A model generated the notes under the pieces. It was not told the DNA's origin. It saw nothing but the letters and a program-made list of their open reading frames with translations, and searched no databases. 37,449 nucleotides of DNA from a virus, in IMG/VR virus record IMGVR_UViG_3300030060_007861, positions 1-37,449 of that record. One strand, given 5' to 3'. Below, piece after piece: positions 1,663 to 12,760 of the stretch. Position 1 is the first letter of the stretch. Every line of letters starts with the position of its first letter. A program made the position numbers and the translations under genes.

Positions 1663-1684
1663 TGGTTACAGAAAGTATCTAAAC

Positions 1685-1692
1685 TATAAATA
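1685..1692 (+). promoter_or_regulatory. T4-type late promoter TATAAATA for the internal-head-protein cluster
   Basis: Exact TATAAATA, 68 bases upstream of ATG 1761. A small hairpin, TTATTC/GAATAA (1708-1713 and 1719-1724), lies in the leader. Confidence 0.7.
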
Positions 1693-1760: not shown

Positions 1761-1817
1761 ATGTTTGATAAAAGTCTACTCCTGCAGCACATCAAAAACC
1801 AAGACATTAATGAGCAA
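1761..1817 (+). repeat. Leader-coding repeat, copy 1
   Basis: DNA coding the MFDK leader. It aligns without gaps to 2571-2621 and 3186-3242, while the downstream parts of the three genes do not align. Confidence 0.75.
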
Positions 1818-2567
1818 TCATCTAGTAAGCCTATGACTGATAGAGAATACTACGATGCCGCAATGAAACAAGATGCACTCAAAGCAGAAAAGAAAAAAAC
1901 TCGAGAAAAAATGGAAATAGATGCTTTGAAGAAAACAGTGAGAAGTGATGCATACAGAAACGCATCACAAAGTGAACGACAGAATATGATAGACAAGTCA
2001 TATGAACTTCGTTCTGTTGGTGACAATCCAAACATCAATATGAGTGATGCAGAGTTTAGTGTTGCACAGGATGTTCGTGGTGAAAATATTCGTAAAGATA
2101 CCCGTACTAAACTTGATGCGATGACACCCGAACAGAGACAAGCAAGTTATGATGAAACGGAAGCCAGAAGTGCAGCCCGCTACGAGAGAGGTAGAAAAGC
2201 AGCACAGGGTGGACCGATCACATCAATGGGCGATGTGCGTGCGATGAAAGACTACTTTGCAAGTAATAGAAAAGACTACAAAAATATAGCAGCTCCTGTA
2301 ATGAAACAGGCTAAACAAGATATTAAAGTCATGTCTAATCTTGATCCTAAAGTAAATGATACACCCACAAAAATAGCAACAAGTGTTTTCAAAAGCAGAG
2401 GCATAGATACAAAAAATCCAGATCTAGTGAAGTTCGAAAGAGGTAGACGACAAGTCTTAGCCGGTCAAACTAGAGTGGGGCTGGATAATCTTCTCAGAAA
2501 AAGAATGGGAATGAATAAAGCAGGATTTGGATCAGCATCAACAGCAGCATCATCAGGGAGATTTTGA
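1761..2567 (+). CDS. Candidate internal head protein 1 with MFDK leader (268 aa)
   Basis: Starts MFDKSLLLQHIKNQDINEQ. Residues 1-18 are shared with the next two genes. I-N-E18 fits the [IL]-x-E site cut by the T4 gp21 prohead protease, so the first 18 residues are read as a removable capsid-targeting leader. The rest is highly charged, helical and basic (many Lys, Arg and Gln, with a long coiled-coil-like section to about residue 150). It ends in a flexible Ser/Ala/Gly tail. No enzyme motif is seen. The ribosome site AGGG lies about 10 bases upstream. Three bases separate its stop from the next ATG, so the genes form one operon from the late promoter at 1685. Function in the infected cell is unknown. 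Confidence 0.7.
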   Translation: MFDKSLLLQHIKNQDINEQSSSKPMTDREYYDAAMKQDALKAEKKKTREKMEIDALKKTVRSDAYRNASQSERQNMIDKSYELRSVGDNPNINMSDAEFSVAQDVRGENIRKDTRTKLDAMTPEQRQASYDETEARSAARYERGRKAAQGGPITSMGDVRAMKDYFASNRKDYKNIAAPVMKQAKQDIKVMSNLDPKVNDTPTKIATSVFKSRGIDTKNPDLVKFERGRRQVLAGQTRVGLDNLLRKRMGMNKAGFGSASTAASSGRF

Positions 2568-2570
2568 AAA

Positions 2571-2621
2571 ATGTTTGATAAGAAACTACTACTACAACAC
2601 ATCAAAAACCAAGACATCAAC
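2571..2621 (+). repeat. Leader-coding repeat, copy 2
   Basis: About 88 percent identical by eye to 3186-3236 (6 differences in 51 bases). Confidence 0.75.
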
Positions 2622-3182
2622 ACTGAGAACCTTAGTGAGCAAAAAAATGAAGTCATTCCGTGGAATCAAGATTTGATGGATAAAATTTCTGGTAAAGGTA
2701 AAATGGGAGAAAATGATCCTCTGTATAAGGGTTCAAAAACCCCTGAAGAAGCTGCCGAAAAGGAAACCACAAATCGACCTTCTTTCCTAGGAAGAGCAAA
2801 ACCGTGGGAAGGTCGTGGTGTAACTGAAGATGAGTATAATCAGGCGGTTGCTGCTAAGAAGTTACATACCGCAAAGTTCTGGGATAAGTTCTATAAAGAA
2901 CGACGAGGCATCAAAAGAGACGGAGCAGATGAAAGAGCAAATTTGAATCCCGTAGATTTTGCACCCGAATTCGATAAAGGCAGATATAAAAAATATGGCA
3001 CAAAATCGAGCACTGGAACTGCATCTACAGGTGGATTTAGCACAAAAAATCTTACTAATCAATCCTCTGTCGGAGAAAATGGATCTAATCTTGCAGGACC
3101 AACTACCTCTAGTAAGTCTACAAAAATTGGATCTTTGAGAATTCCTACTAATTTATTAAAAACTAAACCAGGAATGTCTTGA
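2571..3182 (+). CDS. Candidate internal head protein 2 with MFDK leader (203 aa)
   Basis: Begins MFDKKLLLQHIKNQDIN, followed by a five-residue insertion relative to its neighbours, then L-S-E23 before Gln24, again an [IL]-x-E site. The body is basic and unrelated to gene 1: a Trp-rich middle (FLGRAKPWEGRGVTEDEYNQ), then a Lys/Arg-rich segment and a Ser/Thr/Gly tail. No signal peptide or membrane segment. Ribosome site GGGAG sits inside the 3' end of the previous gene. Leader conservation with body divergence is the pattern of T4 internal proteins, which share a targeting sequence but carry different cargo. The cargo function cannot be named. Confidence 0.7.
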   Translation: MFDKKLLLQHIKNQDINTENLSEQKNEVIPWNQDLMDKISGKGKMGENDPLYKGSKTPEEAAEKETTNRPSFLGRAKPWEGRGVTEDEYNQAVAAKKLHTAKFWDKFYKERRGIKRDGADERANLNPVDFAPEFDKGRYKKYGTKSSTGTASTGGFSTKNLTNQSSVGENGSNLAGPTTSSKSTKIGSLRIPTNLLKTKPGMS

Positions 3183-3185
3183 ATC

Positions 3186-3242
3186 ATGTTTGATAAGAAA
3201 CTACTCCTACAACACATTAGCAACCAAGACTTGAACGAACAA
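3186..3242 (+). repeat. Leader-coding repeat, copy 3
   Basis: Third copy of the MFDK leader DNA; differences cluster in the codons around the predicted protease site. Confidence 0.75.
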
Positions 3243-3953
3243 AAACTACGCGGAAGAATACTCGGTGAACCCGATCCTGTTCCTGATAATTCGATCTTTC
3301 CGGGTGCTGGGGATTTGAAGAAATCATTCTCTTCACCCGAAAATTTAACAAAGCTCAGGAAAACTCTGTTTGGTCAGACTGTAGGAGAGAAGCGAGCAGC
3401 AAAGATGTCTGGGAAGAACATCGGTATTCATAAAAGTAAACCCGGTGAAAAACCAGAAGTGTTCGCTGCAAGGTACAAGAAAGAGAATGATCCCTTTAAA
3501 CCAAGATTCCCTTTTCGAACCGTTACTAAACGTAAGCCATCAAAAGGTGGTGGATTGATAACTCCATTCTCACGATCCAGAAATATGAACGAAGGTACTC
3601 ATACAGTCAGTGTGAGTCTCGATCCTAATGGTGCTGGTTACATCTATGGTAACTCAGGGCATAACGCATTTTCGTTCGAAAGTGAAAAGCCTTCTGGAGA
3701 ACTTCGATCACTTGTCTCTGATCACGATCATGGACATCTCCATATTCAGCAGATCACGAAGGTTCATACGAATAAGAATCGGGAACGGCTTGATAAGCTC
3801 TCGGAGGGTGCTCCAGAGGGTGCTCCTATTAAAGATAAGAACAAGATCGGTGCTTCGGTTGCTGCTGCGGTTAAGAAGCTCATGAAACCCGGCTACGAGG
3901 ATCCTGACACCCCCACAGCAAGTCCTCCAGCAAGATCATCTGGTGGTTATTGA
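3186..3953 (+). CDS. Candidate internal head protein 3 with MFDK leader (255 aa)
   Basis: Begins MFDKKLLLQHISNQDLNEQ, with L-N-E18 as the predicted prohead-protease site. Residues 20-130 are basic and Pro/Lys-rich. A central part has a compact-domain look, with a His/Asp cluster SDHDHGHLHIQQ that could bind metal, though I cannot assign an enzyme. The C-terminus is Pro/Ser-rich and ends SSGGY. Three bases after the preceding stop and 13 before the next ATG, so it is co-transcribed with both. The same leader in three adjacent unrelated bodies argues for a portable targeting tag. Confidence 0.7.
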   Translation: MFDKKLLLQHISNQDLNEQKLRGRILGEPDPVPDNSIFPGAGDLKKSFSSPENLTKLRKTLFGQTVGEKRAAKMSGKNIGIHKSKPGEKPEVFAARYKKENDPFKPRFPFRTVTKRKPSKGGGLITPFSRSRNMNEGTHTVSVSLDPNGAGYIYGNSGHNAFSFESEKPSGELRSLVSDHDHGHLHIQQITKVHTNKNRERLDKLSEGAPEGAPIKDKNKIGASVAAAVKKLMKPGYEDPDTPTASPPARSSGGY

Positions 3954-4742: not shown

Positions 4743-5657
4743 ATGAGAAGCTTTAAAAGATTTCTAAAAGAGGGCATCAAGAAACGTGGAGACAATTTTG
4801 TCGTCACTGATTCTTCTGGTGACAAAGTGCTCGGAACACATGATACCAGAAAAAAGGCATTAAAGCAACTAGCCGCTGTCGAAATTTCTAAGAAGAAAAA
4901 ATTGTCAGAACAACGAGGTGTAATGCTCGCAGGTGTTCTCGGTGTTACCACTACTGTATTTAGTGAACAATACACAGTTCAAAAGGGTGACTACCTCGGT
5001 AAGCTAGGAAATGTAAAAGAAATTTTAAAACTGAATCCTCAGATAAAAGATCCTGATCTAATCAGACCTGGACAAAAGATAAACTTGCCAGGCAAGAAAA
5101 CTGCTGTTCCTAAAGCTACACCTAAAGTTGCTCCTAAACCTGCTGTCACTGGTACAGAGAGTTTTGCAAAAGATCTAGCTCCTCATGAGGGATATAGATC
5201 ACATGTATATAAAGACCATAAAGGCAATCCCACTATAGGAATAGGACACATGTTTGGTCCTGACTCGAAGAAGAGATTTGAAGCTGCAGGGCTAGGTTCA
5301 AAATATAAAGGTTGTGTTGGTGGAAAGTGCGGATTGAACAAAGATGAAGCAACTAAACTATTATCTCAAGATCTTACTGATGTTTATGTTCCAAGAACAA
5401 AGAAACTTATTACTAACTTTGATAGATTAAATCCAGAGGCTCAGAGTGCAGCAGTTGGTTCTGTGTATAGAGGTGGTCTGTCTGGAAGTCCAAAAACATT
5501 AGGACTCATTAATCAAGGAAAGTTTAAAGAAGCAGGAAAAGAATTTTTGAACAGTACAGAATATAGAGAATCTAAAAAAGCAGGGACTGGTGTGTATAAG
5601 AGAATGGATTCTTATGCAAAAGCAATTAGTAGTGCTACACTAAGACCAAATAAATGA
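4743..5657 (+). CDS. LysM-lysozyme (T4-lysozyme family) with capsid-targeting-like leader (304 aa)
   Basis: Three parts. Residues 1-56: MRSFKRFLKE-G, the same Glu10 leader as its neighbour and the gene at 12026, followed by a second [IL]-x-E site, L-S-E56 before Gln57. Residues 77-116: a LysM peptidoglycan-binding domain (YTVQKGD to PGQKINLP). Residues 139-300: a glycoside hydrolase 24 lysozyme with Glu149, Asp158 and Thr164 spaced exactly like the T4 catalytic triad (E-8-D-5-T) and the TIGIGH motif. It cleaves the glycan backbone of peptidoglycan. A Pro/Lys linker joins LysM and enzyme. There is no secretory signal; a hydrophobic stretch at 58-74 might act as a weak anchor. It may be the endolysin, but the leader and the packaged-protein neighbours suggest a capsid-carried lysozyme. 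Confidence 0.85.
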   Translation: MRSFKRFLKEGIKKRGDNFVVTDSSGDKVLGTHDTRKKALKQLAAVEISKKKKLSEQRGVMLAGVLGVTTTVFSEQYTVQKGDYLGKLGNVKEILKLNPQIKDPDLIRPGQKINLPGKKTAVPKATPKVAPKPAVTGTESFAKDLAPHEGYRSHVYKDHKGNPTIGIGHMFGPDSKKRFEAAGLGSKYKGCVGGKCGLNKDEATKLLSQDLTDVYVPRTKKLITNFDRLNPEAQSAAVGSVYRGGLSGSPKTLGLINQGKFKEAGKEFLNSTEYRESKKAGTGVYKRMDSYAKAISSATLRPNK

Positions 5658-9348: not shown

Positions 9349-9519
9349 ATGAAGAAATTGTTTGAACGTTTGAGTAAGATTTTTTATATCTTAGCGATTT
9401 TATCTATTTTTAATTCAATTTACATCTATCAAACAGATGCCACTCTTGGTATTTTTATTGGACTGTGGGTTCCCACTTTATTACTATTAGGTCCTTCTTG
9501 TCCTTGGGCTAAAGAATGA
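9349..9519 (+). CDS. Small membrane protein (56 aa)
   Basis: ATG 9349 with TTGGAG 9 bases upstream; an in-frame TTG inside the ribosome site is rejected. MKKLFERLSKIFYILAILSI opens a first membrane segment (about 10-30) and TLGIFIGLWVPTLLLLG a second (about 35-53). Positive N-terminus suggests the start is cytoplasmic. It could be a superinfection-exclusion or lysis-control type membrane protein, but nothing specific shows it. Its stop overlaps a possible 29-aa reading frame. Confidence 0.65.
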   Translation: MKKLFERLSKIFYILAILSIFNSIYIYQTDATLGIFIGLWVPTLLLLGPSCPWAKE

Positions 9520-12012: not shown

Positions 12013-12020
12013 TATAAATA
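12013..12020 (+). promoter_or_regulatory. T4-type late promoter TATAAATA, leaderless geometry
   Basis: Exact consensus with only TCTGT between it and ATG 12026, so the expected start is the A of the ATG. No Shine-Dalgarno precedes the gene. Confidence 0.7.
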
Positions 12021-12025
12021 TCTGT

Positions 12026-12760
12026 ATGAATAACTTTACTCAATTTTTAAATGAAAACGCCAAATTAACTCTAGAATATCACGATGAGTTAAATTCCAAA
12101 TTTTGGACTGGTGAAAAATTAAAGCCCGAAGTTCGTAAGCACCTTCTGATGGTTGCGAACAAATGGGCTATTTTTTCAAATATACCAAAAAGTGGGATTA
12201 AGGATGTAGTCCTCACAGGAGGAAATGCAAATTTCAATTACACTAAATTTTCAGATTTAGATGTTCATTTGATTGTAGATTTCTCTAGCGTTGTTGATTG
12301 TAAAACTGAGTTTGTTGACGAATATCTTAGAGATAAAAAAACCATCTGGCAGTTGACTCATGATATTAAAATATATGGGGCTCCTGTAGAAGTTTATGCA
12401 GAAGAGAAAGTTCCTTCTAGAAAGTCTCAGGGTGTTTATTCTCTAACGAATGATAGTTGGCACCAAAAACCAAAGAAAGAAAAGGTAGATCTACAAGATG
12501 CTTTGCTGAAATCCAAGATAGATCACCACGTTCACATGATTGATTATGCACTAAAACATCATGCAGATGAAGAAGGAACTTTAGCTAAAATCAAAGAACG
12601 TATAAGAAACATGAGAGGTTCTGCTGTAAGAAAAGCAGGCGAATTTTCTGTAGAAAACTTGGTGTTTAAAGAACTTCGAAATAGAGGTATTTTAGATAAA
12701 ATGACCAAGCACATTAGAGAACTGCAGGATAGAAAATTATCATTGAGAAATAAAAAATAA
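12026..12760 (+). CDS. Nucleotidyltransferase-like protein with capsid-targeting-like leader (244 aa)
   Basis: MNNFTQFLNE-N: aromatic Phe4 and Phe7 with FLxE and Glu10, matching the leaders at 3967 and 4743. Residues 59-86 (DVVLTGGNANFNY, then SDLDVHLIVDF) carry the GG...S-D-L-D signature of the polymerase-beta-like nucleotidyltransferase fold, with Asp77 and Asp79 as metal ligands. A third acidic residue may lie near V-E-V-Y-A-E (about 127-132). The C-terminal half is helical and basic. Family members transfer AMP or other nucleotides to proteins, RNA or small molecules. If packaged in the capsid it would act on host targets at injection, by analogy with T4 Alt. That role is inference. Confidence 0.75.
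   Translation: MNNFTQFLNENAKLTLEYHDELNSKFWTGEKLKPEVRKHLLMVANKWAIFSNIPKSGIKDVVLTGGNANFNYTKFSDLDVHLIVDFSSVVDCKTEFVDEYLRDKKTIWQLTHDIKIYGAPVEVYAEEKVPSRKSQGVYSLTNDSWHQKPKKEKVDLQDALLKSKIDHHVHMIDYALKHHADEEGTLAKIKERIRNMRGSAVRKAGEFSVENLVFKELRNRGILDKMTKHIRELQDRKLSLRNKK

Follow-up and report, generated by a model that had tools for sequence, protein, structure and literature searches.

A shared MFDK leader on three unrelated basic proteins of a T4-like phage: a candidate second capsid-targeting propeptide

The MFDK island

The window analysed here is a whole IMG/VR record of 37,449 bases and represents a genome fragment. It encodes T4-type structural proteins, three tRNAs and a terminase that shares 60% identity with the terminases of Synechococcus phages DSL-LC02 and S-CAM1. 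The phage is therefore T4-like and lies near the Kyanoviridae. Three adjacent open reading frames (ORFs) of the same orientation, 1761-2567 (268 residues), 2571-3182 (203 residues) and 3186-3953 (255 residues), begin with MFDKSLLLQHIKNQDINEQ, MFDKKLLLQHIKNQDINTENLSEQ and MFDKKLLLQHISNQDLNEQ, respectively. Genes are called here by their first base, and the common start is called the MFDK leader. Genes 3967 and 4743 follow directly, and all of them belong to one island behind a late-promoter sequence. The features are listed below, with a slash at each proposed cleavage site.

1684..1692, plus strand: late-promoter sequence (T4/cyanophage), CTATAAATA, identified by sequence and by position upstream of the island
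1761..1814, plus strand: MFDK leader 1, MFDKSLLLQHIKNQDINE/Q, from ORF reading, direct repeat, leader query and codon comparison
1815..2567, plus strand: putative cargo body 1, 250 residues, pI 9.9, predicted all-helical, no family match
2571..2639, plus strand: MFDK leader 2, MFDKKLLLQHIKNQDINTENLSE/Q, same four lines of evidence as leader 1
2640..3182, plus strand: putative cargo body 2, 180 residues, pI 9.7, no relative found
3186..3239, plus strand: MFDK leader 3, MFDKKLLLQHISNQDLNE/Q, same four lines of evidence as leader 1
3240..3953, plus strand: putative cargo body 3, 237 residues, pI 9.9, C-terminal tail kept in sister contig L008
3967..4662, plus strand: T4-type leader MKRFKKFLKE/G, then a 97-residue module, then MNE/ and an SMDT domain
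4743..5657, plus strand: leader MRSFKRFLKE/G, a 50-residue module (phrog_3684), LSE/Q, a hydrophobic stretch, LysM and a phage lysozyme
12026..12760, plus strand: T4-type leader MNNFTQFLNE/N on a nucleotidyltransferase

Of the two copies of CTATAAATA in the window only this one is intergenic; its end lies 68 bases ahead of the gene 1761 start codon. The late promoter of phage S-PM2 is NATAAATA (PMC2984593). The 8-mer TATAAATA is found 8 times in the window against 4 expected, and the promoter argument is therefore one of position, not of count.

The leader peptide

The three genes share 14 to 16 of their first 17 residues, and the DNA encoding them is the top-scoring direct repeat (D1) of the window, so that the near-identity described in the initial annotation is borne out. 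A leader query matched the window at exactly three places, with E values of 3e-9 to 8e-9. Over the 17 codons compared, dS and dN are 1.77 and 0.05 for genes 1761 and 2571, where silent changes are near saturation, 1.10 and 0.16 for 1761 and 3186, and 0.27 and 0.10 for 2571 and 3186; with about nine synonymous sites these values are rough, but their direction is clear. The peptide has been kept while the DNA drifted, which indicates selection on the leader rather than merely a fresh DNA copy. The peptide, and not the DNA, is the conserved entity.

The DNA likeness does run on for a few bases ahead of the start codon, as would be expected if the common start were a copied translation-initiation segment or a DNA or RNA control site encoding a peptide that has no role. 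The upstream sequences diverge beyond about 8 bases, however, and dS is far above dN in two of the three pairs. The codon data thus strongly disfavor this origin, which we regard as highly improbable.

The bodies

Behind the leaders the proteins have no detectable mutual similarity: body-to-body scores are 35-37, and shuffled sequences give means of 35-37. This agrees with the earlier observation that the remainder of the three proteins could not be aligned by eye. Each of the bodies is basic, with a pI of 9.7-9.9. No convincing homolog of any of them was found in PHROGs, Pfam, NCBIfam or PADLOC, nor of the bodies of 1761 and 3186 in the PDB or by tblastn on phages. Single-sequence AlphaFold predictions had mean pLDDT values of 48 and 66, which we took as too low to justify searching for similar folds. 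The first bases of contig L008 (nucleotides 3-254) encode the tail of a 3186 homolog, whose N-terminal part lies off the contig. Another apparent relative of 3186 (L028) was discounted because the phage that carries it is unrelated.

Since the three genes are adjacent, similarly oriented, of similar size and all basic, they could descend by old duplication from a single head or core protein, in which case the surviving N-terminal likeness is part of the fold and not a tag. We consider this improbable. The body scores equal those of shuffles, and the predicted models, both weak, differ from each other. Furthermore, dS between leaders 2 and 3 is only 0.27, yet their bodies cannot be aligned, whereas an ancestor that recent would have left similar bodies.

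A separate observation concerns the C terminus of gene 3186, whose tail is rich in Gly and Ser and has Tyr as its last residue (SSGGY). Similar tails are found in window genes 25173 (GSPGY), 25573 (NTGGTY) and 33014 (SEGKY).

The proposed cut sites

T4 gp21 cleaves after L/I-X-E (PMC9026906). A motif of this type stands at the end of the leader in all three MFDK genes, as INE/Q (1761), LSE/Q (2571) and LNE/Q (3186), placing the putative sites before Gln19, Gln24 and Gln19, exactly where the initial annotation had put them. The accompanying consensus, in which the leader ends in xNEQ, is correct for 1761 and 3186 only. In gene 2571 an insertion before EQ yields INTENLSEQ, which shifts the position of the [IL]xE-Q motif but retains it.

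The pattern [ILMV]xEQ occurs 9 times in the 11,207 residues of the 49 window genes, a count only slightly affected by the one gene entry that was read in the wrong frame. Four of the nine occurrences are the junctions of 1761, 2571, 3186 and lysozyme 4743, the last at the end of its leader-proximal module. These are not four independent events, because the three MFDK sites share descent. The lysozyme module ends in LSE/Q in the window and in LTE/Q in L008.

Comparison with the T4 internal proteins

The MFDK genes resemble those of T4 IPI-IPIII in several respects. In both, unrelated basic bodies are preceded by a short N-terminal propeptide (a putative one for MFDK) with an L/I-X-E cut site (predicted for MFDK), and there is a late-promoter sequence. 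In T4 ipII and ipIII are beside the lysozyme gene e, and the MFDK island is likewise near lysozyme 4743. The differences lie in the peptide. Amber-suppressor tests on IPIII established a rule by which aromatic residues at positions 4 and 7 serve targeting, and I/L at 8 and E at 10 serve processing (PMC9026906). The leader of T4 ipII and ipIII, MKTYQEFIAE/A, is ten residues long and has Ala after the cut. The MFDK leaders are 18-23 residues long, have Gln after the predicted cut, and carry K4, L7, L8 and H10, with no aromatic residue at 4 or 7 and no [IL]-x-E at 8-10. The initial annotation was thus right to call the leader unlike that of T4, but its proposal of a T4 internal-protein layout stands only in part: the selected leader, the unrelated basic bodies and the [IL]xE motif support it, and the targeting rule does not. 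As this residue rule was tested and failed, MFDK is not placed in the T4 capsid-targeting family, though it would work like the T4 system.

An amphipathic-helix model of the leader was rejected, since its hydrophobic moment is 0.04-0.12 compared to a shuffle mean of 0.26; T4-type leaders have moments of 0.45-0.91. An origin from the prohead core protein gp67 was also discarded. In N-terminal sequence comparison T4 gp67 scored among the background, and cyanophage gp67-like proteins scored lower still.

It had been suggested that MFDK leaders be sought in other T4-like genomes, where they might always sit on variable bodies. No other MFDK leader was found in searches from which near-identical records may be missing, and the variability of the bodies is that of three genes of one fragment. 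Strict and relaxed patterns run on viral contigs gave nothing, or else short ORFs attributable to chance and genes from recurrent families that are unrelated, and two matches in genome contigs were ORFs of 20 and 15 residues. The leader was absent from 11 related records, a search that had no positive control among these records. The sequence of the close relative L045 stops within the lysozyme gene and so does not reach the island.

The departure from the T4 rule and the lack of amphipathicity would suit a docking peptide that stays uncleaved and brings the proteins to a tail or neck part, to the host polymerase or to another host factor. Phage S-CRM01 offers a parallel in genes that share MNAEEIYRKY or MNAEEIYKKY starts on different bodies. 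On the other hand, the late-promoter sequence, the T4-type leaders of the island and the retention of [IL]xE-Q in leader 2 despite the insertion speak against docking. We therefore hold docking to be a less likely function of the leader, at perhaps one chance in a handful.

T4-type leaders in the island and in other cyanophages

Leaders of genes 3967, 4743 and 12026 comply with the T4 rule at all four positions (4, 7, 8 and 10); 3967 and 4743 have F4, F7, L8 and E10. L008, whose lysozyme is 76% identical to that of gene 4743, has genes with MIRFKQFIKE/S, MKRFRQFLSE/A and MKSFNRFLNE/G in the same region. The SMDT domain directly follows MIRFKQFIKE/ in L008, but in 3967 it comes after the 97-residue module and MNE/. 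This module is also present inside longer proteins of S-SM2, P-TIM68 and Bellamy, where MNE/ and other modules are again next to it. Judging by these arrangements, module shuffling is visible among the island genes.

T4-type leaders of Kyanoviridae (S-CREM2, S-CRM01, S-SM1 and P-SSM3, and window genes 3967, 4743 and 12026) occur in the same phage group and island as the MFDK leader. Like it, they are borne by diverse proteins with a proposed cleavage site, here after [LIMF]xE; unlike it, they have a different peptide and are found in many genomes rather than one. The virion proteome of S-CREM2 comprises 52 detected proteins (PMC10665884). Among S-CREM2 ORFs with [FL]xxF[LIMF]xE near the N-terminus, six of seven belong to the 52 of 219 proteins that were detected (P ~8e-4). 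The broader pattern, as first run, gave seven detected of nine (P 7e-4); both values are reported because the narrower motif was adopted only once the initial result had been seen. The virion-detected ORFs are ORF6, a SAM hydrolase (MKDFDSFLEE), ORF12, a Cas9 (...LRFASFMAEA), ORF13 (MKDLHSFLTE/Q, detected by one peptide and also having Gln after the proposed site), ORF14, a kinase (VKRFDAFLTEE), ORF136 (MQTFSMFFSED) and ORF154, a cytidylyltransferase (MKNFSSFLTEA). The seventh ORF with the pattern, gp71, is absent from the detected virion proteins. ORF156, a homolog of the 12026 nucleotidyltransferase, is in the virion proteome and has no full leader.

The authors of the S-CREM2 study noted that such enzymes in virions might be contaminants and left the matter open (PMC10665884). 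The leader shared by the virion enzymes, seen when the sequences are set against those authors' data, argues for active packaging rather than contamination. These phages probably do carry cargo tagged by a leader, given that six of the seven ORFs with T4-type leaders were detected in S-CREM2 virions. It is useful in itself that enzymes detected in the virions of a cyanophage, among them Cas9, SAM hydrolase, kinase and cytidylyltransferase, bear the T4-type leader. Among the papers searched, the terms capsid targeting sequence and cyanophage stood together only in one T4 review.

The cytidylyltransferases of S-SM1 and P-SSM3 start with MKKFSAFLNEA and MKKFSAFLKEA, respectively. The pelagiphage HTVC008M homolog starts with MKTLKELLRKK, which does not fit the T4-type leader, and the Bellamy homolog, as annotated, lacks a T4-type start. 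The S-CRM01 kinase, one of several consecutive genes with leaders, starts with MISFDQFLSEK, and a passage of the S-CREM2 paper cites it as a virion protein (PMC10665884). A longer leader, SRWxxWSxG...SF[IM]xEAA, is common to the S-CREM2 Cas9 (ORF12; L038, start 10313, minus strand) and S-CRM01 g128 (record 101252, minus strand).

A proposed second capsid-targeting signal

The likeliest explanation, to which we give somewhat better than even chances, is that MFDK represents a second capsid-targeting propeptide, limited to one lineage, which is borne by basic cargo proteins and removed by the gp21 protease. The three proteins would be made late in infection, and the leader would bring them into the core of the prohead. 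The protease would then cut after [IL]xE, before Gln19, Gln24 and Gln19, and the basic bodies would stay beside the DNA inside the head until infection, when they would pass into the host. There they might act as cargo that most likely counters host defence or helps to take over the cell. All of these steps, from core binding through cleavage and packaging to injection, are inferred, as is the cargo role.

This explanation is favored because a selected leader, unrelated basic bodies and [IL]xE-Q sites are combined in all three genes, and because the genes lie behind CTATAAATA in an island with T4-type leaders, which mark virion proteins in S-CREM2. It is weakened by the absence of the T4 IPIII targeting residues and of an amphipathic helix, by the failure to find the leader in any other genome, and by S-CRM01, where N-termini such as MNAEEIY are shared without a known capsid role. 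The window also stops shortly past gene 17 and does not include the gp20-gp23 region, so that core partners are off the contig. The second targeting signal suggested in the initial annotation is supported also by the late-promoter sequence and the neighboring genes. Ejection proteins of the giant phages phiKZ and SPN3US and T4 Alt have other propeptides, removed by a gp21-type protease after glutamate (PMC9026906); their likeness to MFDK is one of description only.

It is conceivable, at a little below even chances, that two head-targeting tags, the T4-type F4/F7 leader and MFDK, exist side by side in one phage and are removed by the same protease. If so, cargo can be directed to the inside of the head by more than one address. 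If the propeptide reading is right, T4-type phages would use several signals for capsid targeting and not one, and leaders would become a route to injected proteins that have no known homologs.

Additional observations

In the lysozymes of the window (4743-5657) and L008 (1355-2290) a signal-peptide-like stretch follows LSE/Q or LTE/Q; it is RGAMLAGVLAATPLIAGVAHA/Q in L008, and the window version is less pronounced. If the prohead protease cuts there, an export signal could be uncovered, and a lysozyme that has been injected might then be secreted by the host. In both phages only 5 bases separate the end of TATAAATA from the nucleotidyltransferase start codon (window 12013-12026, L008 ~9364-9377), an arrangement that might yield a leaderless late mRNA.

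Three S-CRM01 ORFs (156196, 158673 and 164931), upstream of different genes, have MDPRxxxPYCSYxRKG-like starts, possibly a common promoter or ribosome-binding segment and not coding sequence. Upstream of the MFDK island, window gene 1360-1662 has a prepilin-like N-terminus, MRA/FTIVELTVALVLIVTLIG, with a Pfam N_methyl match of only E 0.5 and no relative in the phage collection. The intergenic DNA before the island contains direct repeats at 1219-1260 and 1311-1352 (TACGCCGGCAAAAAAT...CCCACGGCA).
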